Origin: Rhodanobacter lindaniclasticus | Lineage (GTDB): Bacteria; Pseudomonadota; Gammaproteobacteria; Xanthomonadales; Rhodanobacteraceae | Length of the DNA: 64,000 nucleotides | Direction: 5' to 3' | NCBI RefSeq assembly: GCF_004799035.1 | Contig: NZ_MWIO01000031.1 | Span: forward strand, 1 to 64,000 | In this document: one piece after another, positions 15,396 to 62,953 of the stretch | How the letters are laid out: each line of letters begins with the position of its first letter | Position numbering within the stretch: the first letter of the stretch is position 1 | Made by a program: the position numbers and the translations under genes | Notes under the pieces: model-generated | What the model was told of the DNA's origin: nothing | The model's input: the letters and a program-made list of their open reading frames with translations, nothing else | The model's database searches: none

Positions 15396-15546
15396 GGGCG
15401 CCCCGGAAGGGTGTGGCGCTTCCGCCCCCCGGTCCGGACATGCGGGTCTGCAGATGTGCCAGACTCGCGCCAGGGGAAACCACCGGATGTGGTATTCGCG
15501 GGTTCAGGGCTCGACGATCATGGACAAGTCAAGGGGGCACGCAAAG

Positions 15547-22968: not shown

Positions 22969-22982
22969 CGGAAACACCCCGC

Positions 22983-28345: not shown

Positions 28346-28513
28346 GGCGACCATCCGTCGCTGCCGCGCAAGCCGCGCCGGCACCGGCAGAAACCCTTGC
28401 TTGCAGGCATAATCCACCCTTGTCGTCGATGGCGTTTGCAGGGGCTGCCGTCGCCATCCGAATCCGACGCACAGGATATCTTCATTCGGCGCCGAGCCGG
28501 GCGATTTTCGCAT

Positions 28514-35531: not shown

Positions 35532-37078
35532 GGATCCCCCCAGGCACGGGCACCGGCCCACGCCAGCAGACGACCGAGCGGACGCGGTCGACCGGCAGCG
35601 TAGCGCTGGTGCAGGCTCTGCAGTTGGGCGATGTCGGCGCGACTCCAGCATTGCAGCAGCAGGGTCAGCAGCGCGTAGGACGCGGTCAGCACGAACGCGC
35701 CCAGCAGCAGGGTCGGGATCGGCCCGAGCTGCGCGGCGTGCACCAGCGAGGCGAGCCCGGCGGCCAGCGCCGCGGCCAGCACGATGCGCAGCAGGCGCAG
35801 CCACTCCAGCTGCACGCCGCTGATGCGGATGCCGATGGTCAGGTAGGAGGCGGCGATGACGAACAGCAGGATCACGATGGCCGCCACCGAACCGTACAGC
35901 CCGAAGCGCGCGATCAGCACGTAGTCGAGCAGCATCTTCAGCACGCCCAGCACGATGGTGAGGATCAGCACCACGTTCTGCCGATCCGCACTGACCAGCA
36001 GGCTGGTGGCGCCCTGGGTCACCGTGCCCATCGCGCAGGCGAACAGGCACCAACCGAACACCGGCGCCGCCGCGGCATAGGTCGCGCCGTACAGCAGGCC
36101 GATCACCGCGCCGGAGAAGGTGCCGCCGAAAGCCACCACCGGCGCCGCCAGCAACGCCAGGTAGCTGGTCACGGCGACGAAGCGCCGGCCGCCGGCCTCG
36201 CGCCCCTGGCTCTGCGCCTTGGCCATCATCGGCAGCAGTACCGCGCCGAACACGCCCGGCACCAGCAGCATGATGCCGGTCGCCAGCTGGTAGGCGACCT
36301 TGAAATAGCCGGCCGAAGTGGCGCTGTCGAACAGGTTGAGGAACAGGATCTCCACGTCGCTGGCAATCAGGAAGCCCAAGATGATGGTGACCGAGACGAT
36401 GCGCAGGTGCCGACGCACCCGCTGCTGCAACACATCGGGCACCGCCTGCGTGCCGTCATGCCTGGCCAGCAGGCGCCGCGCCTGGTGACGCGAGGTGAGC
36501 AGGAACACCGCGCCGGAGATCAGGTAGACCACCAGGAACCAGAAGATCGACGCACCCATCAGCATCGCCGCCGCCACCATCAGCAGGTTCAGCGGCGCGG
36601 AGATCAGGCTGACCTTGGCGGTGGCATCGAACGCCTCGAAACCCTTGGCCACGGCGATGTTGAACATGTACGGCGCGCGCATCGCCACGGCGACGACAAG
36701 CATGACGAATTCGGTCGCGTGCAGGTCGGCGGCGAAGCGTGCGCCGAACAGCAGGTACAGCACCAGCGCCAGCGCCATTACCGCAACCAGGTGCCACATC
36801 TGCATGCGGCGCAGGTAGCGCACCACCGGCACGATCAGCTCGTGCTGATCGGCGCCGCGCAGCTCGGCGACGAACTTGATCACGCCGGTGGTGATGCCCG
36901 AGTTGGTCGCCACCACGCCGATCGCGGCAAACCAGATGAACAGGCCGTAGATGCCGTAATGCTGCGGTCCCAGCTGGCGCGCGATCAGGATCGCCGCCAG
37001 CATTCCCAGCGAGTACTCGACGTAGATGCCGATCGAGGAAAACAGCGTGTTGCGCAAGGCGCGGCTGCGGGTGTTCAT
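35528..37078 (-). CDS. wzx: Wzx-type polysaccharide flippase
   Basis: A 516-residue inner-membrane protein with about 12-14 hydrophobic helices in the MATE/Wzx fold. It flips undecaprenyl-linked repeat units to the periplasm. The opening NTLFSSIGIYVEYSLGMLAAILIA and the repeated pattern GYFKVAYQLATGIMLLVPGVFG are typical of polysaccharide transporters. It lies between a Wzy/O-antigen ligase-like gene and the PaaK-like gene, overlapping both by ATGA. Confidence 0.9.
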   Translation of the reverse strand: MNTRSRALRNTLFSSIGIYVEYSLGMLAAILIARQLGPQHYGIYGLFIWFAAIGVVATNSGITTGVIKFVAELRGADQHELIVPVVRYLRRMQMWHLVAVMALALVLYLLFGARFAADLHATEFVMLVVAVAMRAPYMFNIAVAKGFEAFDATAKVSLISAPLNLLMVAAAMLMGASIFWFLVVYLISGAVFLLTSRHQARRLLARHDGTQAVPDVLQQRVRRHLRIVSVTIILGFLIASDVEILFLNLFDSATSAGYFKVAYQLATGIMLLVPGVFGAVLLPMMAKAQSQGREAGGRRFVAVTSYLALLAAPVVAFGGTFSGAVIGLLYGATYAAAAPVFGWCLFACAMGTVTQGATSLLVSADRQNVVLILTIVLGVLKMLLDYVLIARFGLYGSVAAIVILLFVIAASYLTIGIRISGVQLEWLRLLRIVLAAALAAGLASLVHAAQLGPIPTLLLGAFVLTASYALLTLLLQCWSRADIAQLQSLHQRYAAGRPRPLGRLLAWAGARAWGDP

Positions 37079-38337
37079 GAGCCGATCAGCAAGATGGTGG
37101 TGATGACGTACAACGCCACGATGCTGGCCACCGACACGGCCAGCCAGCGCATCCAGTGATCGGTCAGGCGCAGCAGCGGCACGCCCGGCCAGCGCTGGCG
37201 CGCGCCCATGTAATGGCCCACCACCAGTGCGATCAGCAGGTACATCACCACGGTGTAGCTGCGACTGAGGAAGAACGCCGCGGCGAACAGCCCGTACAGC
37301 GACAGCAGCAGGGTGAACGCGATCGCCCGTTCGCTCTTCCACGTGCCGGCTCGCACCGGCTCGCCGGCCGCCTCTGGCTGATGGCGCATCACCGTCACCA
37401 TCATCCAGAAACCGTAGCTGGTGAACGCCAGCCACAGGGTGTAGCCCAGAAACCCGGTTTCGGCGAGCACCAGGATCCAGGAGTTGTGCGCGGTGAGCTG
37501 ATTGTAGTCGGTGAAGTTGCCGGGACCGACGCCGAGCAGCGGGTTGGAGAAGAACATGTGCATGCCCTCGTACCAGGCATCCACCCGGCCGAACGCGGAG
37601 GACTCGTCCGGGTCCAGCTCCTGCATGCGCGAGGACAGCAGGCGCATCACCACCAAGCCCAGCACGCCCAGCACGCCGGCGGTGAACATGCCGCGGCGTT
37701 GCCACACGAAGATGCCACCGACCACCAGCACCGCCAGCATGGCGCCGCGCGAATTGGTCAGGTACACGCCGTACAACAGCAGCGCCGCGGCGGCCAGCCA
37801 CCACAGCCGGCGCAGGAAACCGCCCCCGCTGCTGAGGAAGAACGCCATCGGCAGCGTGGCGGCAAACAGCAGGCCCACGTCGTTGGGGTCGTTGAAAATG
37901 CCCACGTAGCGCACGCGTCCATCCTCACCCAGCGGCACGCCGGTCCAGCCCGTGCCGGTGTTCGCCTGCACGATGCTGTGCTGGGCCAGCACGCAGGCGC
38001 ACAGCACGAACACCGCCATCGCGATGGTCACCCGGCGCGGCGTGGTGCAGGCCGCGGCGAAGACGAAGAACGCGATCACGATGGGGCCGAAGCTCTCCAG
38101 CAGCGCCAGCGCGCCGCCGAACCAGTGGTTGGCGACCATCGACACCATGCCCACCAGCAGGAACACCGGCAACAGCAGGAACTGCGGCGCGTCGAAACTC
38201 TTGCCGGCACGGATCATCCACGCGGCGAAAGCCAGCAGCAGCACCACCGGCAGCAGCGGAATGCCCTCCAGCGCGGGCACGAAATCCTGCGGCCGGACGA
38301 TGGTGAGGGCGAGATAGATGAGGCTTAATGTGAACAT
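37075..38337 (-). CDS. O-antigen ligase/Wzy-like polymerase
   Basis: A 420-residue membrane protein with ten or more helices. A large periplasmic loop contains GRVDAWYEGMHMFFSNPLLGVGPGNF, followed by TAHNSWILVLAETGFLGY. This is the O-antigen ligase (Wzy_C) signature also seen in the exosortase-associated O-ligase-like family. It polymerises or transfers repeat units in the periplasm. The start at 38335-38337 places MFTLSLIYLALTIVRPQDF at the N-terminus, as in homologues. 225 bp of non-coding DNA separates it from the NRPS gene, so a promoter may lie there. Confidence 0.88.
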   Translation of the reverse strand: MFTLSLIYLALTIVRPQDFVPALEGIPLLPVVLLLAFAAWMIRAGKSFDAPQFLLLPVFLLVGMVSMVANHWFGGALALLESFGPIVIAFFVFAAACTTPRRVTIAMAVFVLCACVLAQHSIVQANTGTGWTGVPLGEDGRVRYVGIFNDPNDVGLLFAATLPMAFFLSSGGGFLRRLWWLAAAALLLYGVYLTNSRGAMLAVLVVGGIFVWQRRGMFTAGVLGVLGLVVMRLLSSRMQELDPDESSAFGRVDAWYEGMHMFFSNPLLGVGPGNFTDYNQLTAHNSWILVLAETGFLGYTLWLAFTSYGFWMMVTVMRHQPEAAGEPVRAGTWKSERAIAFTLLLSLYGLFAAAFFLSRSYTVVMYLLIALVVGHYMGARQRWPGVPLLRLTDHWMRWLAVSVASIVALYVITTILLIGS

Positions 38338-38562: not shown

Positions 38563-41500
38563 TCAGCCCCCGCCGAGACGCTTGCGCAGGCGCGACCACA
38601 GGGAACTCTCCGCCGGCGACGGCGAGTCCGCGCCGGCTTCGGGCAACTCGACGGCCAGCGACGCCAGTGTGCCGGTAACCACGTTCAGCAGGCGCAGGCT
38701 TACGCCGGTCTCCTTGCGCACCCGGCTGGCGAACTCCACCGCCAGCATCGAGTGCCCGCCGAGGTCGAGGAAGTTGTCGTTGCGGCGAATCTCCTCCACG
38801 CCGATCAGTTCGCGCCAGAGGCCGGCGAGGTACAACTCGCGCGGGTCGCTCATCGTCTCGGCCACGGTCACGGCCTCGGCCTGCTGGCTGGACCGCGACT
38901 GCGCCACGACGGCCGCGGCGACAGGTTCGGGCAGCTGCTTGCGATCGATCTTGCCGTTGGGCGTCTTCGGCAACTGCGCCAGGGTCTCGATGTGCTGCGG
39001 CAACATGTAGGCGGGCAGCTGCTGGCGCAGGTGCTCGCGCAGGTCGCGGGCACCCGCCTCGACGTCGCCGTCCATCACCACGTACAGCACCATGCGCAGG
39101 TCGTTGTCGCCGAAGCGGCGCACCACCACCACGGACTCGTGCACCGCGGGATGACTGTCGGCGGCAGACTCGATGTCGCCCGGCTCGATGCGGAACCCGC
39201 GCACCTTGATCTGATGGTCGACACGCCCGTGGAAATGCAGCACGCCATGGCGCCAGGCACCCAGGTCGCCGGTGCAATACATGCGTGCGGTGCCGCCGAC
39301 GAAGGGATCGTCGACGAAGCGCTCGGCGGTCAGCTCCGGCTGGAACAGGTAGCCTGCAGCCACGCCGTCGCCACCGATCCAGATCTCGCCGATGACGCCC
39401 GGCGGCAGCGGCCGGCGTTGCGCGTCCAGTACGTAGATCCGCGTGTTGGCGATCGGCCTGCCCAGCGGCACCGTGTCGAGGTCCGGGCGGATGCGCGCCA
39501 CGGTGGACCAGATCGTGGTCTCGGTAGGTCCGTACAGGTTCCAGAACTCGCGGCAGCGGCCCGCCATGTTGCGCGCCACCACCAGCGGCAGCGCTTCCCC
39601 GCCGACGAACAGGCGCAACTGGTGCACCGCGCGATCCTGTCCGGTGTCCTGCAGCAGACGCAGCACCGAAGGCGTCACCTGCAGCACATTGCAACCGCTG
39701 CGGCCGATCAGGTCCCACATCTGGTTTGGCTCGTGCTGTTCCTCGTCGGTGGTGATGACCATGCGCCCACCCACGATCAGCGGCAGGTACAGCTCCAGCC
39801 CGGCAATGTCGAACGACAGCGTGGTGGCCGCGCACAAGGTGTCGTCCTGGGTGAAGCCCGGCTCGCGCGCCATCGCCAGCAGGAAGTTGACCAGGTTGCG
39901 ATGCAGGATCGCCACGCCCTTGGGCTTGCCGGTGGAGCCGGACGTGTACAGCACGTAGGCGGTGTCGTCACCGTGCACCTCGGGCAAGTTGCCCTCGCCC
40001 GCCGGCTGCGCCGCCAGCGCATCGACGTCGAGCAGTTCGCGACCCTCGGCGACCGCCGCCGGCAACAACGCCGCATCAGTGACCAACACATGCCGCAGCT
40101 GCGCATGGCCGGCCATGTAGTGCAGGCGATCCGGCGGGAAGCCGGGGTCCAGCGGCACGTAGGCGGCGCCGCTGCGCAACACGCCCAACACCGCCACCAG
40201 CATCGACAGGCTGCGCGGCACGCAGATGCCGACGCGATCGCCGCGGCCCAGGCCGTGACGGCCCAGCGCCATCGCGAGATTGCGGCTGGCCCGGTCGAGG
40301 CCGGCATAGTCCAGCTGCTCGCCCCTGCACTCGGCGGCGATGCGGCGTGGCGCGGCACGCATCTGCGGCTCGATCAGCGCGGGCAGGCCCAGCGTGCGGT
40401 CGTAGTCCATCGCGGTGGCGTTCCAGCCGGAGAGCACCTGCTGGCGCTCGACCGCGTCCATCAGCTCGAAGTCGCCCAGCGCACGCTGCGGCGAGGCCAC
40501 CGCCTGCGCCAGGATCTGCCGCAGGTAATCGGTCCAGCGCGCCACGCTGGGGGCGTCGAAGATGTCGGTGTTGTAGGTCAGGCCGCCGGAGAGCCCCTGC
40601 GCGTGCTCGATGAACCACAGGCCGACGTCGTCGGCCGCGCCGTGCTGGAACACCGGGATGTTCCGGTGTTCGAGGTCGCCCCAGCGGCCCGGGCGCAGGC
40701 GCACGTCCTGGAACGAGAACATGGCCTGGCTCAGCGGCGGGCGGCTGTCGTCGCGACGCAGGTTGAGGTCGATCACCAGTTGCTCGAACGGCACGTCGGC
40801 ACAGGCAAACGCATCCAGCACCACGCCACGCACCGCCTGCAGCGCGTCCAGGAACGAGGCGCCGTCTTCCAGCTGCACGCGCAGCGGCAGCGCGTTGACG
40901 AAGAAGCCCATCACCCGCTCCAGCTCGGGCGTGTCGCGACCGCGCACGGGTGTGTTCACGATCACCTCGCCCTGCCCGCTGAGCCGATGCAGCAGCACGC
41001 ACCAGGCGGTCAGCAACACCATGAACAGCGTGCCCTGGCCCTGCTGGCCGAGCTGGCGCATGTCGGCGGCCTGCTTTGCCGGCAGGTGGATCCATTCGGT
41101 GGCGCCGGCACCGCTCATCCGCGGCGGACGCGGACGGTCGAGCGGCAACTCCAGCGGCTCCAGCGCGCCGGCCAGACGCTTGCGCCAGTGCGCCAGCTGG
41201 CGTTTCAGTTCGTCGCCGCGCATCCACTGCGCATGCCATGCGGCGAAATCGGCGTACTCGACCACCAGCGGCGGCAACGCGGGTTCCCTGTCCGCGGCAC
41301 GCGCGGCATACAGCGCCGACATCTCCTCGTACAGCAGGTCGAACGACCAGCCATCCCAGATCACGTGATGCGGCATGAAGAAGAACACGTGCTCCTGCGC
41401 ATCGAGCCGGAACAATCGCACCCGGAACAGCGGCGGCGTGCCGAGATCGAACGGCTCGGCAATCAGTTCCTCCAGGCGCCGGGCCAGCACGGCCTCGCGC

Positions 41501-44500
41501 TCGACCGCGGCCACGCCGCACAGATCCTCCAGCGGCAACGCGACGTCGAGCTCGGCGTGGATGCGCTGCACCGCAGTCTTGTCGTCGAGCTCGATCGTGG
41601 TGCGCAAGGTCGGCTGACGCCGCACCATGTCGCGCAAGGCCTGTCCGAAGGCGGCCACGTTCATCGGCCCGCGCAGGCGATGCGCGGACGGCGCGTGGTA
41701 GACCACCTGACCGGGGTTGAGCTGCTCCAGGTACCAGACGCGCTGCTGCATCAGCGAGAGTGGCGCGCTGCCGCGATCGGCGAGCCGCGGGATCGCCGGC
41801 GGCGCCGGGCGCGCTTGCGCCGGATCGGCGTCCAGCGCGCGGATCGCCGCCGCCATCGCGGCCACGCTGGGGGCGTCGAACGCGGCGCGCAAGGACAGGC
41901 TCAATCCAAGTTCGCGATTGAGTCGGGCGATCCAGCGCGAGGCCAGCAGCGAATGGCCGCCCAGATCGAAGAAGTTGTCGTCCACGCCCGGGGCCTCGAC
42001 GCCCAGCGTCGCGGCCATCGCCGCGGCCACGTGCTGTTCGAGTTCGTCGCGCGGCGCCTGCTGTGCGCGCGTGCCGCTGCCGGTGGCCGCATCGGGTGCG
42101 GGCAGCCGCGCGCGATCGACCTTGCCGTTGGGCGACAGCGGGATCGCCGGCAACATCACGTAATGCGACGGCACCATGTATTCGGGCAGGTTCGCGCGCA
42201 GGTGCGCGGACAGCGCCGCCGGATCGGGGCTGGCGCCGGCCGCCGCGGCGATGTAGGCGACCAGGCGCATGTCACCGGGGCGATCCTCGCGCGCGAGCAC
42301 CACCGTCTGCGCCACCGTCGGGTGCGTGGCGAGGCGGTGTTCGATCTCGCCCAGCTCGATGCGGAAGCCGCGCAGCTTCACCTGGAAATCGTTGCGGCCG
42401 AGGTACTCGATGTTGCCGTCCGCGCGCCAGCGACCGAGGTCGCCGGTCTTGTATATGCGCGCGTCGGCGTCATGGGCGAACGGATCGGGCAGGAAGCGCT
42501 CGGCGGTCAGCGCCTCGCGGTTGAGGTAGCCGCGGCCGACCTGCACGCCACCGATGAAGATCTCGCCGGCCACGCCCACCGGCACCGGCTGGCCGTAGCC
42601 ATCGAGGATGTAGATGCGCGTGTTGGCCACCGGGCGGCCGATCGGAATGCTTGACGCGCCATCACCGGCCACGCACGCCCACGCGGTGACATCCACCGCC
42701 GCCTCGGTCGGGCCGTACAGGTTGTGCAGGCCGACGTCGGGCAACTGGCGGAAGAAGGCCGCGGCCAGTGCGGCCGGCAGCGCCTCGCCGCTGCAGATCA
42801 CCTGCTTGAGGCTGGCGCACGCCGCGGTATCACCGTGGTCGAGGAAGGCGTGCAGCATCGAGGGCACGAAGTGGATGGTGCTGACCTGCTCGCGCCGGAT
42901 GGTGTCGGCGAGGTAGGCCGGATCGCGATGGCCACCGGCACGCGCCATCACCAGCCGCGCGCCGCTCATCAGCGGCAGGAAGAACTCCCACACCGAGACA
43001 TCGAAACTGCACGGTGTCTTCTGCAGCACCACGTCGTGCGCATCGATGGCGAACATCGCTTGCATCCAGCGCAGGCGATTGACCACGCCGCGATGCTCGT
43101 TCATCGCCCCCTTGGGCAGGCCGGTGGAGCCGGAGGTGTAGATCACGTAGGCGAGGTGGCGGTCGTGCAGGCCGGCCGCCGCCGCGGTCGGGTTGGACGT
43201 CTCGCACGCGGCCCATGCCGGCACAGCCTCATCCAGCACCAGCCGCGGCACGGTGGGTGCCAGCGGAGCCAGCCGCGACACCAGTGCCTGCTGGGTCAGC
43301 AGCACCGCCGGCGCGCAGTCCTCCAGCATCCAGGCCAGGCGTTCGGCGGGATACTCCGGGTCGAGTGGCACGTACGCCGCGCCGGCTTTCAATATGGCCA
43401 GCAGGCCGACCACCAGCTCCAGCGAACGCTCGGCGCAGATCGCCACGCGCTGGTCGGGGCGCACGCCGGACGCGCGCAGATGGTGGGCGAGCCGATTGGC
43501 CTGCTCGTTCAACTGGCCGTAACTCAGCGTTGCGCCTTCATGCCTGACGGCGACAGCCTGCGGCGTGCACGCGACCTGCGCCTCGATCAACTCGTGGATG
43601 CACTGCCCGGCCGGATAGTCGACGTGGGTGGCGTTGAATTTCTCCAGCACCTTGCGCTGCTCGATGTCGGCCAGCAGCGGCAGCCGGCCGAACACCGTGT
43701 CGTCCTCGTCGCCGGCCATCGCCTGCAGCAGGGTCTGGTAGTGCCCCAGCCACTGACGGATGGTGGCGCCGTCGAACAGCTCGCGGTTGTACTGGCATTC
43801 CAGGCGCAGCTCGCCGTGGCTCTGCACCGCGTTGATCGCCAGCTCGAAGTTCTCGTGGCGGCGCGGGTTGCTGGCGAACTCCAGCTGCAGGCCGGGGAAC
43901 GCCGAATCCTCGTGGTCCAGCGCCTGGTCGATGTTGAACATCACGCTGACCAGCGGCAGCCGCGACGGGTCACGCCCGATGCGCAGCTTGCGCAACAAGG
44001 TACCGAAGGTCAGGCGCTGGTGTTCCAGCGCGTCCAGCAAGGTGGTTTGCGCCTGCTCGATGGCCAGCGCGGCGGGCTGGTCCAAGTCCGGCTCGAACAG
44101 CAGCGGCAAGGTGTTGACGCAATGACCGACCAGGGCATCGTGGCCGTCGATCGCCTGCCCGGCCGTGGGGATGCCGATCACCACCCGCGGCTGGTGCGCC
44201 AGCCGGATCAGCAAGGCAGCGAAACCGCCGAGCAGGGTAGCGAACAGGCTCGCACCGCGACGCGCGCCGAAGCGGCGGACCGCGGCGACCAGTTCCGCAT
44301 CCAGCGTCCAGTCCTCGCGGGCGGAGGCGAAGCCGCGGCGGGCCGGGCGCGGGCGATCGGTGGGCAGGTCGAGTACCGGAATCTCGCCTGCGTAGCGCGA
44401 CAACCAGTACTGCTCGTCCTGTGCGTACGCGGCATCCGGTTGACGGGCCTGGGCCAGCGCATAGTCGGCAAACGCTTCGGCCGGCGGCAGCGCTTCCACC

Positions 44501-45057
44501 GCGTGGCCGAGCCGCTGCGCATACAGCGTGCCGAGCTCGCGCACCAGCACCCACCACGACCAGCCGTCGCAGACGATGTGATGGGCAGTCAGGATGAGCA
44601 CATGCTCGTCGTGCGCCAGGCGCAGCAACTCGCCGCGCAGCAGGTGATCGCGACCCAGCGCGAACGGCGTTTCCACCGCCGCGGCGCGGCGCTCCTCCAG
44701 CGCCTGCTCGCGCCGCACCGGATCGGCAGCGGACAGATCCAGCAGCGGCAGCTCGAAGCTCACCTGCTCGCGCACGCACAGGGCTTCGCCATCCGGGCCG
44801 AAGCTGGCGCGCAACGCATCGTGCCGATCCAGCAGCGATTGCAGCGCGGCATGCAGTGCGACCGCATCGAGCACGCCGCGCAAGTGCAACGAGACCGATT
44901 CGTTGTAGGCCAGCGAGGCCTCGGCGCCGAGCTGGTCGGCCAGCCAGATTTCGCGTTGCGGCTCGGTGCTGGGCACCACGCGCGACAGCGTGCCGTCGGC
45001 GAAGGGGTCGTAGTCGACGGCGAGTGCCGCATCCCTGGCTGGAGTTCCGATACTCAT
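38563..45057 (-). CDS. Bimodular nonribosomal peptide synthetase, C-A-T-C-A-T
   Basis: A 2164-residue NRPS. Approximate domains: C1 20-450 (HHIVCDG near 160), A1 about 500-990 (YTSGSTGLPKG near 642), T1 near 1034 (LGGHSLL), C2 1080-1500 (HHVIWDG near 1232), A2 1560-2030 (TSGSTGKPKG near 1705) and T2 near 2100 (LGGHSML). No thioesterase or reductase follows: the protein ends about 60 residues after T2. By alignment to the GrsA pocket, A1 reads D-V-W-H-I-S-L-V-D, close to known serine codes (DVWHLSLID). A2 reads D-I-L-Q-F-G-L-I-W, close to glycine codes (DILQLGLIW). It should add Ser and then Gly to the chain from the upstream protein, which ends five bases before this start. Release is unexplained. 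Confidence 0.93.
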   Translation of the reverse strand: MSIGTPARDAALAVDYDPFADGTLSRVVPSTEPQREIWLADQLGAEASLAYNESVSLHLRGVLDAVALHAALQSLLDRHDALRASFGPDGEALCVREQVSFELPLLDLSAADPVRREQALEERRAAAVETPFALGRDHLLRGELLRLAHDEHVLILTAHHIVCDGWSWWVLVRELGTLYAQRLGHAVEALPPAEAFADYALAQARQPDAAYAQDEQYWLSRYAGEIPVLDLPTDRPRPARRGFASAREDWTLDAELVAAVRRFGARRGASLFATLLGGFAALLIRLAHQPRVVIGIPTAGQAIDGHDALVGHCVNTLPLLFEPDLDQPAALAIEQAQTTLLDALEHQRLTFGTLLRKLRIGRDPSRLPLVSVMFNIDQALDHEDSAFPGLQLEFASNPRRHENFELAINAVQSHGELRLECQYNRELFDGATIRQWLGHYQTLLQAMAGDEDDTVFGRLPLLADIEQRKVLEKFNATHVDYPAGQCIHELIEAQVACTPQAVAVRHEGATLSYGQLNEQANRLAHHLRASGVRPDQRVAICAERSLELVVGLLAILKAGAAYVPLDPEYPAERLAWMLEDCAPAVLLTQQALVSRLAPLAPTVPRLVLDEAVPAWAACETSNPTAAAAGLHDRHLAYVIYTSGSTGLPKGAMNEHRGVVNRLRWMQAMFAIDAHDVVLQKTPCSFDVSVWEFFLPLMSGARLVMARAGGHRDPAYLADTIRREQVSTIHFVPSMLHAFLDHGDTAACASLKQVICSGEALPAALAAAFFRQLPDVGLHNLYGPTEAAVDVTAWACVAGDGASSIPIGRPVANTRIYILDGYGQPVPVGVAGEIFIGGVQVGRGYLNREALTAERFLPDPFAHDADARIYKTGDLGRWRADGNIEYLGRNDFQVKLRGFRIELGEIEHRLATHPTVAQTVVLAREDRPGDMRLVAYIAAAAGASPDPAALSAHLRANLPEYMVPSHYVMLPAIPLSPNGKVDRARLPAPDAATGSGTRAQQAPRDELEQHVAAAMAATLGVEAPGVDDNFFDLGGHSLLASRWIARLNRELGLSLSLRAAFDAPSVAAMAAAIRALDADPAQARPAPPAIPRLADRGSAPLSLMQQRVWYLEQLNPGQVVYHAPSAHRLRGPMNVAAFGQALRDMVRRQPTLRTTIELDDKTAVQRIHAELDVALPLEDLCGVAAVEREAVLARRLEELIAEPFDLGTPPLFRVRLFRLDAQEHVFFFMPHHVIWDGWSFDLLYEEMSALYAARAADREPALPPLVVEYADFAAWHAQWMRGDELKRQLAHWRKRLAGALEPLELPLDRPRPPRMSGAGATEWIHLPAKQAADMRQLGQQGQGTLFMVLLTAWCVLLHRLSGQGEVIVNTPVRGRDTPELERVMGFFVNALPLRVQLEDGASFLDALQAVRGVVLDAFACADVPFEQLVIDLNLRRDDSRPPLSQAMFSFQDVRLRPGRWGDLEHRNIPVFQHGAADDVGLWFIEHAQGLSGGLTYNTDIFDAPSVARWTDYLRQILAQAVASPQRALGDFELMDAVERQQVLSGWNATAMDYDRTLGLPALIEPQMRAAPRRIAAECRGEQLDYAGLDRASRNLAMALGRHGLGRGDRVGICVPRSLSMLVAVLGVLRSGAAYVPLDPGFPPDRLHYMAGHAQLRHVLVTDAALLPAAVAEGRELLDVDALAAQPAGEGNLPEVHGDDTAYVLYTSGSTGKPKGVAILHRNLVNFLLAMAREPGFTQDDTLCAATTLSFDIAGLELYLPLIVGGRMVITTDEEQHEPNQMWDLIGRSGCNVLQVTPSVLRLLQDTGQDRAVHQLRLFVGGEALPLVVARNMAGRCREFWNLYGPTETTIWSTVARIRPDLDTVPLGRPIANTRIYVLDAQRRPLPPGVIGEIWIGGDGVAAGYLFQPELTAERFVDDPFVGGTARMYCTGDLGAWRHGVLHFHGRVDHQIKVRGFRIEPGDIESAADSHPAVHESVVVVRRFGDNDLRMVLYVVMDGDVEAGARDLREHLRQQLPAYMLPQHIETLAQLPKTPNGKIDRKQLPEPVAAAVVAQSRSSQQAEAVTVAETMSDPRELYLAGLWRELIGVEEIRRNDNFLDLGGHSMLAVEFASRVRKETGVSLRLLNVVTGTLASLAVELPEAGADSPSPAESSLWSRLRKRLGGG

Positions 45058-45062
45058 GATGA

Positions 45063-48000
45063 TCAACTGACCTTGGTGTAGCCGCCCGGTTGCCCGGGAA
45101 CCTGCACGAACCATGCCGGACGGCCGTCCGGTTCGCGGCCGATGCGCGCGCCAGGCAACGGCGGCTGGCGCGCGTCCATCACGTTGCGGGCGGTGGCGGT
45201 GCGCCGCGGCAGGAAGTCGGCCTCCTGCAACTCGATCACCGAATCCTTCCAGGCCTGCGTGATCTGCTGGAAGTCCGCCTCGCTGTGCGCCGAGGTGAAG
45301 AAGCAGGGGAAGTTGTCCAGGATGTGCACGCCGCGGCTGCGCATCATCGCGAACAGCAGATCCTGCAGCGGGTGTTCCTCCAGGAACTGGGTCTTCCAGA
45401 ACGACGCGAAGTGCTTGACCGCGATCGGCGCGCCCACTTCGTCGCAGAACGCATTGAGCTCGGCCGCCATCGCGCTGGTGCGCGCGTTGAGCCGTTCCTG
45501 CAGGCCGCTGCCCTGCTCCTTCATGTGCTGCAGCACCGCTTGCGCCGCCGCCAGCGCCAGCGGATGGCGCACGAAGGTGCCGGCGAAATAGGTGACGCCC
45601 ACGGTCGGCACCGAGTCGTCGCCGAACTGCCAGCTGCCGCCGTCGAGCGCATCCATGAACTCGCGCTTGCCGGCGATCACGCCGATCGGATAACCGCCGC
45701 CGACCACCTTGCCGTAGGTGGCGAGGTCCGCCTGGATGCCGAACAGCGCCTGGGTGCCGCCGGGATGGGCGCGGAAGCCGGTGACGATCTCGTCGAAGAT
45801 GCACAGCGTGCCGGACGCGGCGGTGATCTTGCGCACCTCGCGCAGGAAGTCGACCGGCTGGAAGTCGGGTCGCCGGCTCTGCACCGGCTCGATCAGCACG
45901 GCGGCCAGTTCGTTCGCACGCGAGCGGATGATCTCCAGCGACTCGGGCGTGCCGTAGTCCAGCACGATCACGTTCTCCGCCGTGTTGCGCATGATCCCCG
46001 GCGCCGCCGGTACCGCGCGCAGCTTCTTGGTGCCGCGCACGATCACCTCGTCGATGATGCCGTGGTAGGAGCCGCTGAACAGCACCACGGTGCTGCGCCC
46101 GGTGACCGTGCGCGCCACCCGCAGCGCACCCAGCACGGCTTCCGAACCGGTGTTGCACAGGGCGGCGCGGTCGTGTCCGGTGACTTCGCACACCAGCCGC
46201 GCCACTTCGCCGGCGAGCGGATGCTGCGGGCCGATCTCGTAGCCGAGATCGAGCTGGCGGCGGATCGCCTCCAGCACGAAATCCGGCTGCCAGCCGAACA
46301 GGCTCATGCCGAAGCCGTTCAGCGCATCCACGTATTCGTTGCCGTCCAGGTCCCACAGGCGAGAACCCTTGGAACGCTCGACCACCAGCGGGTAGACGAT
46401 CTCCTTGGTCAACGGGCGGAACCCGTTCACCACGCGCGGATCGGCCATGTGCGGGCGCTGCGCCTCGGTGTACTGCTTGGACTTGCGCGAGCGCGCCACG
46501 TAGCGCTCGATGAAACGGTCCAGTCGCTCGCGCTGGTGGCTGGACAGTTCCAGCTGGCCGTTGTCGATGCGTGCGATCGCGCCGAACGCCTTCTTGACGT
46601 CGTAGCGCGTGTGCGCCAGCGCCGCCTCCTCGTCGCGATCCGCGCTGGTCGATACGGGTGCCGCTGGCGGCGGCATTGCCACGCTGGCCGGCGGTGCCGC
46701 TTGCGGTGCGGGCGCGACGGGTGCGGCGGCGCTCGCCGTTCCCCCGAGCAAGGCCAGCTGCTGCGCCATCAGTTGCATCTGCTGGTCGATCACGTGACGC
46801 ACGTAGTCGTTGCCGCCCGCTCCCGCCGTCGGCAGCGCCGGCACGGCAAGCGTTGGCGCGGCGAGCGTCGGCGCAGCCACGGGGGCGGCGACCGGCGCGG
46901 CGACTGGCGCCGCCGGCGCGTCCGGTGGCATCTGCTCGTCCAGCAACGCCGCCAGCCGGTCCAGGCTGGCGTGGTCGACCATCAACTGGCGGAACGTCAC
47001 CTTGACCGGGAACACCCGCGACAGGTGCAGCGCGACCTGGGTCAGCATCAGGCTGTCCAGCCCGAGCTCGATGAAGTTGCTGGTGCTGTCGGCATCGTCC
47101 AGCTCGATCCCGGTGATGTCCTCGAACACCGCCTTGAGCTGGTTCACCAGCCGGGGGCGGCGATCGACGGGCGTGGCGACTTGCGGCATGGGGGCTTCCT
47201 CGGCCGCAGGCGCGGCGGCGACGGGTATCGGCATGACGAACGACGGCGCCGGCGACGCGGCCGGTGCGGCATCCAGCCAGCAACGCTGGCGTTCGAACGG
47301 ATAGGTGGGCAGGCGCACACGGCGACGGCGCGCGCGATGGTCGAGTCGAGTCGGATCCAGCGCCACGCCGCGGCACCACAGCTGGCCCGCGGCCTGCAGC
47401 AAGGCGGCGCGCTCCGCATCCGCCGCATCGGCCAGGCTGGGCACGGCGACGATGCGCTCGCGTGCGGCACCCAGTTGCTGGCGGGCGAGCGTGGTCAGCG
47501 TGTGGCGCGGGCCCACTTCCAGCAGCACGCGCGAAGGTGCGTCGAGCACCCGCGCCAGCGCGCTGGAGAAGCGCACCGGCACGCGCAGATGCTGCGTCCA
47601 GTAATCGATCGAGCCGGCCCGCGTGGCGTCGAGCCAGTCGCCCAGCGCGGTCGACACCAGCGGCAACTGCGGACGACCCAGCTCGACGGCGGCGAGCGCC
47701 TCGCGGAACGGCGCCAGCACCGGCTCCATCATCGCCGAATGGAAGGCGTGCGAGGTCTGCAGCAGGCGCGCGGCGATGCAGTCGGCTTCGAGCACCGCGC
47801 GGAAGTTCTCGATCGCGCCGGCCGGGCCGGCCACCACGCAGGCGCCCGGCGCGTTCTCCGCCGCCAGCGCCAGCTCGACCGGCAGCCGCACCTGCAGCGC
47901 ATCCAGCGGCAGGCGCACCGACAGCATCGCGCCAGCCGGCTGCGCCTGCATCAGCGCGCCGCGCCGCGCGACCAGCGCGATCGCGTCGCGCAGACTGAAC

Positions 48001-51000
48001 ACGCCGGCCAGCGTGGCCGCCACGAACTCGCCCACGCTGTGGCCGATCATCGCCGCCGGCCTGAGGCCCAGGCTCATCCACCACTGCGCTAGCGCGTACT
48101 CGATGGCGAACGTCGCCGGCTGCATCACTGCCGTGGGCAGCAGCGCCGCCGGGTCATCGGCGAATACGCGCGCGGCCAGATCGAAACCGCCCTTCTCGCG
48201 CAAGGCCTCGGCGCAGGCATCGAACGCGTCGCGGAACACCGGCTCGCTGGCATGCAGCGCGCGCCCCATGCCGGCGTACTGGGCACCCTGGCCAGGGAAC
48301 AGGAACACCACGTCGCTCGCCTGCGCCGGCGCGCTGCGGGCCGCTGCCGCGGCGGTTTCCGCGCCGGCCAGCTGCGCGCCGGCGCTGAGGGCGTCATCGG
48401 CGACCACGGCCAGCCGATGGGCGAAGGCCTTGCGCCCGACCGTCAGCGTCCACGCCGCGTCGGCAAGCTCGAGGTCGGGCGCCGCAGTCAAGTGTGCGCC
48501 GAGCCGGGTGGCTGCCGCGCCCAGCGCGGTGGCCGTGCGCGCCGACAGCAACAGCAACTGCGGCCCGGCGATCGGCTCGCCCGGCGCCGGCGCCGGCGCT
48601 TCTTCCAGCACCACGTGCGCGTTGGTGCCGCCCACGCCGAACGAGCTCACGCCCGCGCGGCGCGGCACGCCGGGGGCGCTGGTCCAGTCGTGCAGGCGAT
48701 CGTTGACCACGAACGGCGAGCGGGCGAAGTCGATCGCCGGATTGGCCGCAGCGTAATGCAGGCTCGGCGGAATCCGCCGCTCGGCCAGCGCCAGCGCGGT
48801 CTTGATCACCCCGGTCGCGCCGGCGGCGATCACCAGGTGGCCGACGTTGCTCTTGACCGAGCCGAGGCGGCAGAAACCGGTATCTGGCGTGTCGCGGCGG
48901 AACGCCTTGACCAGGCCCTCGACCTCGATCGGATCGCCGATCGGCGTGGCCGTGCCGTGCGCCTCCACGTAGGAGATGCTGCGCGCGTCGACGCCGGCGT
49001 TGCGCTGGGCCATCGCGACCACCGCGGCCTGGCCCTCGCTGCTGGGCGCCATGAAGCTGGCCTTGGTGCCGCCGTCGTTGTTGATCGCACCGCCACGGAT
49101 CACCGCGATGATCGGGTTGCCATCGGCCTGCGCGTCGGCCAGCCGCTTCAGCAGCACCACCGCCGCGCCATCGCTGAACACCGTGCCGCGTGCCTCGGCG
49201 TCGAAGCTGCGCGTGTGGCCGTCCGGCGACAGCATGGCGCCGTCCTGGAACAGATAGCCGCTGCGCGGCGGGCAGGTGATCGAGGCGCCGCCGGCCAGCG
49301 CCATCTCGCACTGGCCGTTGCGCAGGCTCTCCATTGCCTGGCAGATCGCCACCAGCGAGGTGGAACAGGCGGTATGCACACTCACCGTCGGGCCGGTGAG
49401 ATCGAGCTTGTGCGCGACCCGCGGCGCGATGAAATCCTTCTCGTTGTCCAGCATGACCTGGAACGCCCCGAGCTTTTCGACCTGGTCGGGATGCGCGCTG
49501 ACGTGATGCTGGAAATAGGTCGCGTTGTACATGCCGGCGAACACGCCGACCGGACCGTCCTGTGCGCCGGGCGCATGGCCGGCGCGTTCCAGGCACTCCC
49601 AGCACAACTCCAGGAACAGCCGCTGCTGCGGATCCATCAACTCCGCCTCGCGCGGGCTGATGCCGAAGAACGCGGCGTCGAACAGCTCCACGCCGTCGAT
49701 CACGCCGCGTGCGGGGACGTAGGCCGGGTCGTCGCGCAGGCTGGCCGGAATCGACGGGTCGAGCTCGCCCGGCGCGAAACGGGTGATCGACTCGCGCCCT
49801 TCGCACAGGTTCTGCCAGAAGCTCTCGATGTCCGCGGCCCCGGGGAAGCGGCCGCTCATGCCGATGATCGCGATCGGTTCGGCGCCGGCGTGCGCGCCGG
49901 CGGAACGGGGGCGGGCCAGCCGCGCCGGTTCGATGCCGTCGGCGCCGGCGTGATCGCGGTGACGGGCCAGCGCCAGCGGCGTGGGATCGCGGAAGAAGGT
50001 CAGCACGTCCAGCGTGGCATCGCCGTCGCGACGCAAGCGATCGACCAACCGCACCGCCAGCAGCGAGCTGCCGCCCAGCTCGAAGAAATTGTCGCGGCGG
50101 CCCACCTTGTCCAGCGCGAGGCTGGCGGCAAACGCCGCGCACAGGCGTGTCTCCGCCTCGCCCACCGGAGTCTCGTAGGCCGCGGCCAGCTCCGGCCGCG
50201 CGCTGCCCGGTGCCGGCAACGCGGCGCGGTCGAGCTTGCCGTTGGCGGTGACCGGCAGCGCGTCCAGCACCACCCAGGCGGCCGGCAGCATGAACTCCGG
50301 CAGTTCGGCGGCCAGGCCGCGGCGCAACGCCGGCAGGTCGGGACGGGCGGCGGCGGGCGCCACATAGGCCACCAGGCGCTTGCCCAGCGGCGGGTCGTCG
50401 CGCAACACGACGGCGCAAGCGCGTACGCCGGGCTGGCGCAGCAGCGCCGCCTCGATCTCGCCGGTCTCGATGCGGTAGCCGCGGATCTTGACCTGGCCGT
50501 CGCGGCGCCCGACGAACTCCAGCACGCCATCATGGCGCCAGCGCACCAGGTCGCCGGTGCGATACAGCCGATCGTCGGCGCCGCCGAACGGATCGGCCAC
50601 GAAACGCTCGGCGGTCAGCTGCTCGCGCCCGAGATAGCCGCGCGCCACGCCGGCGCCGCCGACGTACAACTCGCCGACCACACCCGTCGGCAGCAGCTCA
50701 CCGGCGGCGCCCATCACGTACACGCGGGTGTCGGCGATCGGCCGACCGATCGGCACCGAGCGCGCGTCGGCAGGCAGGTCGCGCGGGATCGGCCAGGTGC
50801 AGGTGAACGTGGTGCACTCGGTCGGGCCGTAGCCGTTGATGATCTCCACGCCGGGCAACGCGGCCAGCGCGCGACGCACGTGGTCGACCGACAGCGCCTC
50901 GCCGCCGATCAGCAACTGGCGCAGCCCGTCGAGCCGACGCGGCTCCTCGTCGACCACCGCATTGAACAGCGACGAGGTCAGCCACGCCGTGCTGACGCCT

Positions 51001-52328
51001 TCGCCGGCGATGGTTGCGGCCAGGCCGGCGGCGGTGGGGATCGTTTCGGGATGGACTACCACGCGGCCGCCGTTCAACAGCGCGCCCCAGATTTCCAGGG
51101 TCGACGCATCGAAACCGAGCGGCGCGGCGTGCAGCATGCGCGTGTCCGAATCCAGCCGCACGTAGTCGACGCCGCATACCAGTCGGATGATCGAACGATG
51201 GGCGATCGCCACGCCCTTGGGCGTGCCGGTGGAGCCGGAGGTGTACATCACGTAGGCGAGCGCATTGCCGTCGACCGCAGGCAGCGGCGCGTCGTGCGGC
51301 GCGGGTGCGGACTCGACGGCATCCAGCGCCACGCACGCCACGCCCTCGGGCAACGACGGTGACGACGACGTCGACGCCACCAGCACCATCCGCGCGCCCG
51401 CATCGGCCAGCGCGAACGCCAACCGCTCCGGCGGGTAGTTGCGGTCGAGCGGCAGATAGGCCGCGCCGGCCTTGAGCACGCCGAGGATCGCCACCAGCGC
51501 CGCCGCCGAGCGCTCCAGCGCGACGCCGACGATGTCGCCGGGCACGACGCCGACATCGCGCAGATGCCGGGCCAAGGCGCTGGACCGCTCATCGAGCCGG
51601 GCATAGCTCAGGGCGCGTCCGTCCTCGACCACCGCCGGTGCGTCGGCATGTGCGGCGGCGGTGCGGGAGAACAAGGCGGACACGCTGTCGCCGCGGTTGC
51701 GCGGCACCGTGGTGTCATTCCACTGCACCAGCAAGCGCTGGCGTTCGGCCGGGACAAGCAGATCCAGTTCGGCGAGGCTGGCCTCGCCTTCGTCGAGCAG
51801 GCCCGCCCATGCGCGCTGCACGCCACCGGCCAGCAGCTCCACGCTGGCCGCGGTCAGCGGACTGCGCCAGCGCAGTTCGAGGGCAGCGGTATCGCGATCG
51901 ATGCGCCAGGTGGAGAGCGCGGCGGCGTCGCCCGGTACCGCCGTGTCGTGCAGCACCATCCACGCGACCGTGGCCGGAGCCACCGACTCGCCCGGCGCGG
52001 ACAGCACGCCTTCCAGCCACGCCTTGCGCTGCGCGCCGCGAGGCACCGGCACGGTCAGCTGCCGGATGCGTCCGGCCTGGTGCAGTGTCGCCACGGCGGA
52101 CTCGGCGCCGGTCAGTCGCGCCTCGACCAGGGCCAACGCGGCCAACAGGGTCAGCGCAGTGCGCGCGGGATCGACCGCGTCCATCGCCGCCACGCGCGCA
52201 ACCAATGCTTCGTCGAGCGGTACGCGGCGGCTTTGCCAGGCTTCGTCGCCGACAGGCGCGATGCCCGGCAGCACGTCCAGCAACGACACGCCGTCGTCAA
52301 TTGCCACTGGATTGGATGCCGCGCCCAC
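45063..52328 (-). CDS. Hybrid NRPS-PKS: (C remnant)-A-T-KS-AT-ACP-aminotransferase
   Basis: A 2421-residue protein. Residues 1-190 resemble only the C-terminal half of a condensation domain (ending [21 protein letters not shown]) and lack HHxxxDG. Then come A (core [11 protein letters not shown] near 364), T (LGGSSLL near 753), KS (TACSTSL near 987, EAHGT near 1124, KSNVGH), AT (GHSVGE near 1429; SHAFH, the malonyl type), ACP (GLDSLM near 1758), an Ala/Pro-rich linker, and a class III aminotransferase ([12 protein letters not shown] lysine near 2206). No KR or DH is present, so the beta-keto group could be transaminated to an amine. The A pocket reads D-A-L-W-L-G-G-T-F, Val-like. Translation probably starts at GTG (52326-52328) because AGGAGG lies just upstream; an earlier ORF start lacks similarity. 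It is followed after 5 bp by the bimodular NRPS. Confidence 0.92.
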
Positions 52329-52570: not shown

Positions 52571-53407
52571 CTAGGGCGCAGCGGCGGACTGGAACGCAAA
52601 CAGCCACAGGATCGCCCGCTGGCGCGGGCTGCCACTCCAGCTCACCCGATAGGTGCCGGCACGGTCGACCTGACGGTAGGCCACCGCGCACTGCACGCCG
52701 CTGATCGGCGGCAACTGCAGATAGCTGTCGATCACCGTGAAACCGTTGTCCGGCACCGCGCTCATCTGGCGCACGTTGCCGTCACCCCACCACACCGCGA
52801 TCAAGGTGGCCGGCCCGGTCGTGGCGACCTCGCCGCTGGTCACGCTGAAGCGGTCGTCCGGTTCGGAGAGCATGCCTTCCAGCGTGCGCTTGAGCTTGCC
52901 CGCGATGCGCTGGGTCAAGGTCGGCGCGGGGTAATTCTGGGCGAAATCCTGCAGCACGGCGGCGTGGCGGATCTCCACGAAGGGAATGGTGATCTCGCGG
53001 TCGGGCTCGCCCGGCTTGTCGATGCTGACCGTGTGGTGCGGACCGCCGGGGCCGGCCAGCGACACGTAGGCCTTCACGTCGAAGCGGCCCTGGTAGCCGT
53101 CGTAGACGGCGGTGGGGCCGACCTGGGTCCAGTGCCGCCCATAGCTGTCGGTCGGCGGCACCGCGTTACTGGCAAAGCCGCCATTGAGCACCAGCAACGC
53201 ACTGCCCGTGGGTGCCGTGTCGAGCGGCACGGTCACGGCAGGACGGCGGCCGCGGTGATCGGCCTGCGCCAGCAGGGTGTGGACGCCGAGCGCCGGCGGC
53301 GCGGGCACCGGAGGAACCGGCCCGTCGACGCCTGCCGCGGTCAGCGGAATGCAGGCCAGCATGAGCACCCGCCAGGCCCGGCGACCGCCACGCGACCGCC
53401 CGGACAT
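52571..53407 (-). CDS. Secreted protein of unknown function
   Basis: A 278-residue protein with a basic start and a hydrophobic segment (about residues 13-26) like a signal peptide, followed by a Pro/Ala/Val linker. The rest is a beta-rich domain with short motifs (LLVLNGGFASNAVPPTDSYG, IPFVEIRHAAVLQDFAQNY). Two cysteines appear at most, one within GVQCAVAY. I do not recognise the family. The start overlaps the TGA of the dioxygenase gene (ATGA), so the two are coupled; the NRPS/PKS gene follows 243 bp downstream. Confidence 0.7.
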   Translation of the reverse strand: MSGRSRGGRRAWRVLMLACIPLTAAGVDGPVPPVPAPPALGVHTLLAQADHRGRRPAVTVPLDTAPTGSALLVLNGGFASNAVPPTDSYGRHWTQVGPTAVYDGYQGRFDVKAYVSLAGPGGPHHTVSIDKPGEPDREITIPFVEIRHAAVLQDFAQNYPAPTLTQRIAGKLKRTLEGMLSEPDDRFSVTSGEVATTGPATLIAVWWGDGNVRQMSAVPDNGFTVIDSYLQLPPISGVQCAVAYRQVDRAGTYRVSWSGSPRQRAILWLFAFQSAAAP

Positions 53408-54330
53408 CACGAATCGCCGACTTTGGCGTACGGCGCGGCATCCGAATCGACGGACGCGCCGGCCAGTCGCCGCGCCAGCCGCTTGGCGCCGGTGTAGAGG
53501 CCGCCGGCCGCCAGCGTGGCGGCGTCGAACAGCGGGAAGCGACCCACCACTGGCGGCACCCAACCCCGACCGCGCAGCATGTCGTGGGTGCGATGCAGCA
53601 GGGCGTCGCGCCGCGTCGACCGCGTGTAGTAGGTGAAGCTCATGGTGATCGACGGGCCATCCCCGTTCTCGACCATGTGCGGGCTGGTCGAGGGCATGTA
53701 CGCGCCCATCCCGGGTTCCAGCTCGAACACCTGCGCGCGCTCGCGATACTCCTCGCGCCACTGCAGCAGCTCGCGCGAATGGGTGCGGTGAAAACGGTCG
53801 CGCGCATGCTCGCTGACCACCTGCGTGTCGCGATGGTCCCAGACGTAGATGCGCTTGCGGCCCTGTACCTGCAGGATGAAATTGTGTTCCTTGTCCATGT
53901 GGAACGGCGTCACCGCCCTCGGCGAGGTGAGGAAGATCCAGCCGGCGCGATAGCACATGCCCGGGTCGACCACCTCCACCTGCGGCCGGATCGAATCGAG
54001 CACCTCGTCGACGACGGCGCGGTACTGCGGGTCGGACTGCACGTTGAGCAGCGAAGTCCATGCCGCGGCATGCTCGATATCGCTCAGCGTCGCCTCGACA
54101 CCCTTGGCGTTGGGGTGCAGGCGGGGGGCCTCGTTGAACGACGTGCCCGCCGTGGCGTCGCCGCTGTGCGAGCGCACGCGGCCACGCGCCTCCAGCCGCT
54201 TGCCCAGCTCGACCAGGGCCGGCAACTGCAACGCGGGGTGCGCCGCCAGATGATGCCGCACACCCTGTATCCGCCAGGGATCGAACTGATCCCAGGCGAC
54301 TTCCAGCCACTTGGACGATGGACCCGACAT
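53407..54330 (-). CDS. JmjC/cupin-type Fe(II)/2-oxoglutarate-dependent dioxygenase
   Basis: A 307-residue protein with a double-stranded beta-helix. The iron-binding facial triad is visible as H144-x-D146 (PFHMDKEHNF) and H218 (STSPHMVENGD), with conserved VQGRKRIYVWD between. Family members hydroxylate amino-acid side chains, including aminoacyl thioesters of NRPS lines. Its place upstream of the hybrid synthase makes a tailoring role in this pathway plausible; polysaccharide or protein substrates cannot be excluded. The start (54328-54330) gives MSGPSSKWLEV; it shares an operon with the TIGR04325-like methyltransferase upstream. Confidence 0.8.
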   Translation of the reverse strand: MSGPSSKWLEVAWDQFDPWRIQGVRHHLAAHPALQLPALVELGKRLEARGRVRSHSGDATAGTSFNEAPRLHPNAKGVEATLSDIEHAAAWTSLLNVQSDPQYRAVVDEVLDSIRPQVEVVDPGMCYRAGWIFLTSPRAVTPFHMDKEHNFILQVQGRKRIYVWDHRDTQVVSEHARDRFHRTHSRELLQWREEYRERAQVFELEPGMGAYMPSTSPHMVENGDGPSITMSFTYYTRSTRRDALLHRTHDMLRGRGWVPPVVGRFPLFDAATLAAGGLYTGAKRLARRLAGASVDSDAAPYAKVGDS

Positions 54331-60767: not shown

Positions 60768-60854
60768 CTCCATCCCCCCAACCCTGCCACTCCAGCCAGC
60801 ATGGCGAACCGACGGCGCCGCTTGGCGCGCGCCCCGCCTGGCGGCGGGCATGCA

Positions 60855-62691: not shown

Positions 62692-62801
62692 GCTGAGACC
62701 CCGTGGATTTCTCTTGATGACTCTGCCCCGCCATGCCGCTCGGGGACCTGCCTGCCGGTCGTGCCGACCCGGGTGATTGAAGTGGAAAGGTGCTGGCGCG
62801 G

Positions 62802-62933
62802 TTATTTCATCAGCAGTATCTGCAGGAACGCCAGCAGATAGAAGCCGATCACCACCGCGACCAGGATCTTCACCGTGCGGCGCACGCCGCGGCGCTGGTC
62901 CGCGGCATGGATCTCGTCAACCGGCTGTGTCAT
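62802..62933 (-). CDS. 43-residue single-helix membrane protein between ctaD and ctaE
   Basis: A 43-codon reading frame from ATG (62931-62933) to TAA (62802-62804). A hydrophilic, basic N-terminal half (DQRRGVRRT) is followed by a hydrophobic helix (about residues 22-41) ending LLMK. Similarly placed small membrane proteins occur in oxidase operons of related bacteria and are annotated as small assembly proteins or hypothetical. It starts 20 bp after the ctaD stop and 110 bp before ctaE. Its length makes it easy to miss; the position and composition support it. Confidence 0.7.
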   Translation of the reverse strand: MTQPVDEIHAADQRRGVRRTVKILVAVVIGFYLLAFLQILLMK

Positions 62934-62953
62934 TTCCACGGCTTCCCCGCCGA

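Follow-up and report, generated by a model that had tools for sequence, protein, structure and literature searches.

A hybrid polyketide synthase-nonribosomal peptide synthetase line linked to an exopolysaccharide locus in Rhodanobacter lindaniclasticus and its relatives, and a Cys/Arg hydrolase pair that accompanies it

In the mycosubtilin and iturin synthetases, a polyketide synthase (PKS) module containing an integrated class III aminotransferase stands ahead of nonribosomal peptide synthetase (NRPS) modules and gives rise to a beta-amino acid. The starter of MycA is a fatty acid supplied through a fatty-acyl ligase, iturin-type lines end in a thioesterase (TE) domain, and mycosubtilin is a free lipopeptide. 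Adenylation and carrier proteins also supply an envelope polymer in the Dlt system, which D-alanylates teichoic acids, and Cys-type thioesterases act in NRPS termination, for example the TE of sulfazecin SulM. The XrtA/PEP-CTERM exopolysaccharide (EPS) loci carry genes for hydrolase 1, hydrolase 2 and a TIGR03098 ligase, and both hydrolases are hypothetical equivalogs in the NCBI listing. Here, we describe a locus of Rhodanobacter lindaniclasticus in which two collinear megasynthases, S1 and S2, lie within an EPS locus that extends from about 9877 to 61688. The window to which all coordinates refer comprises bases 1-64000 (64,000 nucleotides, forward strand) of a 112-kb contig (NZ_MWIO01000031.1) in a 4.06-Mb genome (GCF_004799035.1).

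S1 and S2 together fill 38563-52328 on the minus strand. Genes were called with a codon-based caller, the long overlapping open frames of this GC-rich DNA were sorted by codon-position GC, and the frames of both synthases are backed by that measure. Window proteins were scanned with NCBIfam (40 genes) and Pfam (19 genes), and our statements about families refer to the matches listed in those scans. By Pfam and motif checks, S1 (45063-52328, minus strand; 2421 amino acids, aa) has the order A-T-KS-AT-T-class III aminotransferase (AMT), with A at residues 220-698, followed by T, KS at 817-1192, AT at 1341-1632, the second T at 1730-1796 and the AMT at 1979-2364. S2 (38563-45057, minus strand; 2164 aa) is C-A(Ser)-T-C-A(Gly)-T. 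Gene calls and domain order thus agree with a preliminary description, which had placed two collinear hybrid synthases here. The S1 motifs are intact (KS, TACST, EAHGT and KSNVGH; AT, GHSVGE and HAFH; AMT, the lysine within TYGKVVGGG), and the carrier serines and two HHxxxDG motifs were present in the motif check of S1 and S2. Neither a KR motif nor a TE was found in the two proteins by the same checks, and S2 has no terminal TE. The KS-AT-T-AMT module with its MycA-type aminotransferase is what S1 has in common with the mycosubtilin and iturin lines, and the nearest solved relative of the S1 AMT is that of the mycosubtilin synthase MycA (6kfm/6kfu; E about 1e-118). Unlike those lines, S1 starts with an amino-acid A domain, the assembly line has no TE, and its setting is an EPS locus. 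No Pfam match was obtained for the ~165 aa N-terminus of S1 (residues 1-165), which diverges fast among relatives; since the NCBIfam NRPS models begin just ahead of the A domain, it may be the remnant of a condensation domain.

The pocket letters of the three A domains, at positions located via anchor motifs, are, in order, DALWLGGTF, DVWHISLVD and DILQFGLIW. By the usual code tables, we take these to specify Val, Ser and Gly, in keeping with the Val-like, Ser and Gly pockets that had earlier been read by eye. The HAFH motif of the S1 AT presumably marks it as malonyl-type. With the Val, Ser and Gly codes, one malonyl extension and beta-transamination, the last carrier would come to hold 3,4-diamino-5-methylhexanoyl-Ser-Gly. 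Because the starter is an amino acid and not a fatty acid, we expect a vicinal diamine, and the product is predicted to be a short, positively charged (dicationic) peptide. Among relatives, the starter code varies: it is Val-like in most, a few have no assignable code, and some match what we take to be Pro and Thr codes. Their middle code is Ser-like, Gly-like or not assignable, and the last is mostly Gly-like. Two relatives (G034:C61:36331-41262 and G069:C1:683119-688032) have S2 versions of the form C-A-T-C-T; the second A domain is absent, and the last carrier must therefore get loaded in trans or act otherwise.

The preliminary description had suggested that comparative genomics might show co-occurrence of the synthase with polysaccharide genes, and it does. 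As a marker for the EPS locus, we used the protein encoded at 26508-27674, whose family is unknown. It has an N-terminal hydrophobic helix, has 145 residues invariant in 82 sequences and is widespread in Xanthomonadales EPS loci; its structural model is poor (pLDDT 63.5), and Foldseek gave no match at E up to 0.001. We screened an unselected set of 398 genomes from the order: 91, from 26 of the 98 sampled genera, have the S1 aminotransferase, 84 have the marker, and 65 have both. The marker is therefore found in 65/91 genomes with S1 versus 19/307 without it (Fisher p 6e-36, kinship ignored). In 62 of the 65 double-positive genomes, S1 and the marker lie on one contig, 13-45 kb apart. The linkage to polysaccharide genes is not a matter of local chance. 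A separate set was chosen by the marker itself: 50 loci were tested from the best 80 of 213 genome loci carrying it, and the aminotransferase was present in 40. Most synthase orthologs occupy open frames of about 2200-2800 codons, and some are shorter.

Within the genus, the marker is present in 14/45 genomes. A tblastn comparison of the stretches fetched from these 14 detected synthase domains in 12 and not in the other two, G062 and G066. Synthase and marker lie on separate contigs of fragmented assemblies in G010 and G029. Other genus genomes carry NRPS matches to S2, one of them (G015) at 51%. In the order-wide sample, the aminotransferase was detected in five of the genus genomes, all marker-positive, and 17 were negative, of which only G062 has the marker. 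The S2 homologues of related species are 51-73% identical over nearly their whole length and stand beside the same EPS genes. That of a close relative, G028, is 92-95% identical and is broken into two reading frames near residue 912 (G028:C27:72843-79327), which reflects either a sequencing error or a real frameshift. In G001 (L048-L049), G007 (L052) and G004 (L055), the same slot is occupied by a different, longer assembly line. Near the line of G001, there are Pfam matches for an asparagine synthase, a methyltransferase and two cupin genes, as well as an AMP-ligase-like protein; G007 and G004 resemble the G001 locus by gene order only.

The missing TE domain and a hydrolase pair that co-occurs with the synthase go beyond the preliminary description. 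In the window, the pair lies about 20 kb from the synthase. hydr2 (16867-17643, plus strand) is alpha/beta hydrolase-like, has Arg at the nucleophile position and resembles TIGR03101 (86.2 bits, below the cut-off of 202.75); hydr1 (17640-18470, plus strand), an alpha/beta hydrolase whose nucleophile elbow carries Cys114, resembles TIGR03100 (93.6 bits, below the cut-off of 168.45). A genome-wide search for hydr1 at E 1e-15 covered 80 genomes (30 of the 45 genus genomes and the 50 marker-locus genomes). It was present in 52/52 synthase genomes (12 Rhodanobacter and the 40 aminotransferase-positive marker loci) versus 1/28 others; the 28, except for G009, G017, G020, G026 and G066, had been searched genome-wide for the aminotransferase. 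The sole exception is Dyella ASV21 (G093), whose synthase is probably cut off by an assembly gap, since S2 domains sit at the end of its contig. For G004, G094 and G111, the sole match is a divergent hydr1 (33-37%), which in the latter two is close downstream of S2. No hydr1 was found genome-wide at this threshold in G062 and G066, and in their synthase-free EPS loci the homologues of 16867, 17640, 52571, 53407, 54407 and 60948 were all not found. Among these absent genes, only the hydrolases follow the synthase so regularly; the phosphopantetheinyl transferase at 60948, for instance, was not found in the S1-positive stretches of G028, G004 and G094.

Cys114 and His245 of hydr1 are invariant in 52 sequences, and the structural model shows C114 at the elbow of an alpha/beta hydrolase fold. 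The same Cys/His is seen more widely: of 32 class-wide matches to the TIGR03100 family, 30 loci were fetched, the window's own among them, and every one has Cys at the nucleophile position. The corresponding position of hydr2 is Arg in 44/47 sequences and Gln in 3/47, and it is Arg in 12 selected class-wide hydr2 proteins and in 5 further sequences (two NRPS-fused C-termini and the window's own among them). In G658 (L263), a KS-AT-T-AMT protein is followed by C-A-T with a hydr2-like C-terminal stretch and then by hydr1, in G520 (L264, same genus) a fused A-T-hydr2 protein is followed by hydr1, and in G514 (L265) the order is C-A-T-C-A-T, hydr2, hydr1. Fusions of hydr2-like stretches to NRPS C-termini were thus seen in two genomes (L263, L264) of one distant genus. 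They were identified by their Arg motif and by blastp matches to the 16867 protein (37% over 156 aa; 28% over 172 aa). Where hydr1 and hydr2 are discrete proteins, the HMM names bear out the assignment; the matches listed include no such name for the fused ones. The fusions place the pair where the chain is released, and the two proteins probably unload the synthase. In three other loci (L257, L259, L262), a single frame of 548-614 aa is matched by both the hydr1 and the hydr2 query and could, by its length, encode the two fused together.

With Cys-type NRPS thioesterases such as the SulM TE, the likeness is a cysteine nucleophile on an alpha/beta hydrolase fold; hydr1 differs in being a separate protein with an Arg-bearing partner. 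The XrtA/PEP-CTERM EPS loci share the Wza, chain-length and XrtA-type glycosyltransferase families with the window, as well as related hydr1 and hydr2 proteins with the same Cys and Arg. They differ in that the locus described here contains a full PKS-NRPS, no exosortase was found in its genome, and the TIGR03100 and TIGR03101 matches are below the curated cut-offs. The Dlt system is similar in principle, in that adenylation and a carrier protein supply an envelope polymer. Here, however, the line is multimodular and transfer would fall to a pair of alpha/beta hydrolases; no DltB/MBOAT protein is among the matches listed for the 40 (NCBIfam) or 19 (Pfam) window genes.

We propose that S1 and S2 are a dedicated part of the EPS biosynthesis locus and that hydr1 and hydr2 move their peptide onto the repeat unit, a proposal to which we assign about an even chance. 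The domain order, active-site motifs, pocket letters, conserved linkage and the co-occurrence and fusion of hydr1/hydr2 are read directly from the sequences, and from them we infer the product, the Cys-acyl step and the attachment to sugar. S1 would load Val and extend it with malonyl-CoA, and its aminotransferase would turn the beta-ketone into an amine, yielding a Val-derived 3,4-diamino acid to which S2 would append Ser and then Gly. Because a TE is absent, the chain would stay thioester-bound to the last carrier domain, from which Cys114 of hydr1 would capture it, aided by the Arg-bearing hydr2. Before flipping, while the lipid-linked repeat unit is still cytoplasmic, the Gly carbonyl would pass to a hydroxyl of this unit or to an amine on it that the deacetylases have freed. 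Wzx, Wzy and Wza would export the resulting polysaccharide, an acidic backbone with dicationic peptide side chains. We prefer transfer over release because the line accompanies polymer genes across genera, because no other exporter was recognised among the matches listed, because Gly predominates at the presumed linkage end and the far end is variable, and because two deacetylases could expose amines. The observation made in the preliminary description is therefore confirmed, and its interpretation, a peptide that decorates a polysaccharide, is partly supported, more firmly for the linkage than for the chemistry. A broader version of the proposal, which we would put forward only tentatively and regard as somewhat doubtful, is that there is a new class of envelope polymers, zwitterionic EPSs with PKS-NRPS vicinal-diamine peptides on an acidic backbone, with modules swapped between species and a two-part Cys/Arg alpha/beta-hydrolase transacylase that takes the peptides from the last carrier domain and also serves classical XrtA systems.

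Several points weigh against attachment to the polymer. To our knowledge, no chemistry has been described for the EPSs of this group. hydr1 could merely hydrolyse the thioester and free the peptide, and its fold neighbours are mostly esterases. The genomes compared are related and hence non-independent data; 19/84 EPS-marker genomes are without the synthase; 17 divergent aminotransferases associate only weakly with the marker (7/17, p 0.06); and the PaaK-like ligase, the deacetylases and the GNAT protein do not track the synthase. Furthermore, 26/91 S1-positive genomes are without the EPS marker. A stand-alone cluster free of polysaccharide genes had been named as the finding that would speak against the earlier interpretation, and we sought one by opening 14 of these 26 loci. 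Thirteen have a homologue of the 59367 XrtA-type glycosyltransferase nearby, together with the hydr2-hydr1 pair. In 12 of the 13, the pair directly follows the line's last carrier domain; in G324, it follows a carrier-like stretch that stands apart, upstream of S1. Wza is present in 8/14; several of the remaining loci were covered in part or as far as a contig end. The fourteenth, G420, has glycosyltransferase and galE homologues near the synthase, and XrtA-type export and transferase genes and the hydrolases were not found in the 60 kb read.

G420, being the one opened marker-less locus of 14 without XrtA-type EPS genes in the stretch read, suits another explanation, namely that the product is a diffusible small peptide (a signal, metal chelator or protease inhibitor), that its position in the EPS locus reflects co-regulation or an exchange hot spot, and that hydr1 is a hydrolytic trans thioesterase. 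The AMT, closest to that of the synthase for a free lipopeptide, two Rhodanobacter-group loci that have EPS genes without a synthase, and the variation of starter and middle residues between species all fit as well. We nevertheless judge a free peptide unlikely, because the synthase accompanies EPS genes across genera and no exporter besides the Wzx/Wza type is among the matches listed for the window genes scanned. The joining chemistry might also run the other way, with an amine of the peptide coupled to the carboxyl of a uronic acid (GalNAcA-type) by an AMP ligase, a GNAT/FemAB-like or another enzyme after release by hydr1. The locus does encode a TviB-type dehydrogenase, a PaaK-like ligase and a GNAT/FemAB-like protein. 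The ligase, however, occurs in the S1-negative loci G062 and G066 and was not found in two S1-positive loci, those of Frateuria terrea and Pseudoxanthomonas GM95, and the GNAT protein was not found in most S1-positive loci tabulated; we consider this route improbable. Linkage without function, in the form of a degenerate or silent metabolite cluster that hitch-hikes with the EPS genes, would account for the patchy presence of the synthase (91/398) and for the S2 split over two frames in G028. It sits so poorly with the intact motifs in the window, the open frames of most orthologs and the presence of hydr1 in 52/52 synthase genomes that we give it very little credence.

Transfer by hydr1/hydr2, our preferred reading, would furnish a multimodular counterpart of teichoic-acid D-alanylation, in which a thiotemplate product is a polymer decoration and not a free metabolite, and would explain why a PKS-NRPS aminotransferase occurs in 26/98 sampled genera. 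As species differ in their starter codes, the charge of the biofilm matrix would then be programmable. Carrier-protein unloading is a candidate function for XrtA hydrolase 1 and 2, and if the same transacylase pair serves classical XrtA systems, the unexplained XrtA hydrolase 1/2 and ligase genes would gain a function. The parts are known (the MycA-type AMT module and XrtA-type EPS genes), and what appears to be new is their combination and the unloading pair. Among the open PubMed Central papers listed in our searches, no title or abstract start describes an NRPS within the EPS locus of a member of this order, and the combination and the unloading pair did not turn up there either.

The surrounding genes are those of an EPS locus, with several glycosyltransferases among them. 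As the preliminary description had it, the synthases stand between polymerase/flippase genes and tailoring genes. A Wzx-type flippase (35528-37078, minus strand; PF01943) and an O-antigen ligase/Wzy-type polymerase (37075-38337, minus strand; PF04932, with a weak TIGR03097 match) lie on one side. On the other side are a protein of unknown family (52571-53362, minus strand), a cupin_8/JmjC-type protein that is a candidate amino-acid hydroxylase (53407-54330, minus strand), a TIGR04325 family methyltransferase (54407-55246, minus strand; 213.6 bits, cut-off 80) and a heparinase II/III-like protein (56155-58611, minus strand; weak, below cut-off), a candidate polysaccharide lyase. The 52571 protein, seen in 13/17 S1-positive genomes tabulated, is perhaps secreted, as some homologues start with a hydrophobic stretch when read by eye; that hydrophobic start, and the failure to find the protein in the divergent S1 loci G001, G007, G004 and G081, make it an unlikely transferase. 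A HetI/Sfp-type 4'-phosphopantetheinyl transferase had likewise been placed in the same island and is found at 60948-61688 (minus strand; PF01648 over the Pfam cut-off, below the NCBIfam cut-off).

Further from the synthases, a TviB-type UDP-HexNAc 6-dehydrogenase (626 bits, cut-off 592) and an NAD-dependent epimerase-like protein (9877-12241, minus strand) lead us to expect an acidic amino sugar in the polymer. The interval 21973-24092 holds a polysaccharide deacetylase (21973-22968, minus strand; PF01522) and a GNAT/FemAB-like acyltransferase (22983-24092, minus strand; PF13480), and a NodB-type polysaccharide deacetylase lies at 27671-28354 (minus strand; PF01522). A PaaK/CapK-like AMP ligase (34161-35531, minus strand; NCBIfam matches below cut-off) tracks the EPS locus and not the synthase; as it occurs in S1-negative loci and was not found in two S1-positive ones, we rejected it as the general joining enzyme.

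The locus had been called XrtA-like, and this holds for its EPS machinery only. XrtA-type Wza, chain-length, tyrosine kinase and outer-membrane proteins are encoded at 12397-16863 (plus strand); Wza (TIGR03027, 208.3 versus 180) and the chain-length protein (TIGR03007, 395.6 versus 278.85) are over their curated cut-offs, and the kinase and outer-membrane protein are below theirs. The TIGR03013 XrtA-type glycosyltransferase at 59367-60773 (minus strand; 560.7 bits versus 393.35), probably the initiating transferase, is also over its cut-off. The genome (G000) gave no match to exosortase PF09721. Across the genus, exosortase is present in 13/45 genomes and the 26508 marker in 14/45, with no genome having both (p 0.003, kinship ignored), as if exosortase and the marker-bearing EPS locus were alternatives.

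The EPS locus is flanked on one side by cytochrome oxidase subunit III/I-like genes (6150-9507) and on the other by SURF1-, heme A synthase-like and heme O synthase genes (61804-64000), as though a single cluster had been divided by it. G005, G028, G003, G062 and G066 share the flanks of the window, and G001 and G007 differ on both sides. Near the contig end, a YD-repeat-like protein is encoded at 180-4187, in a stretch whose GC is lower than that of the remainder.

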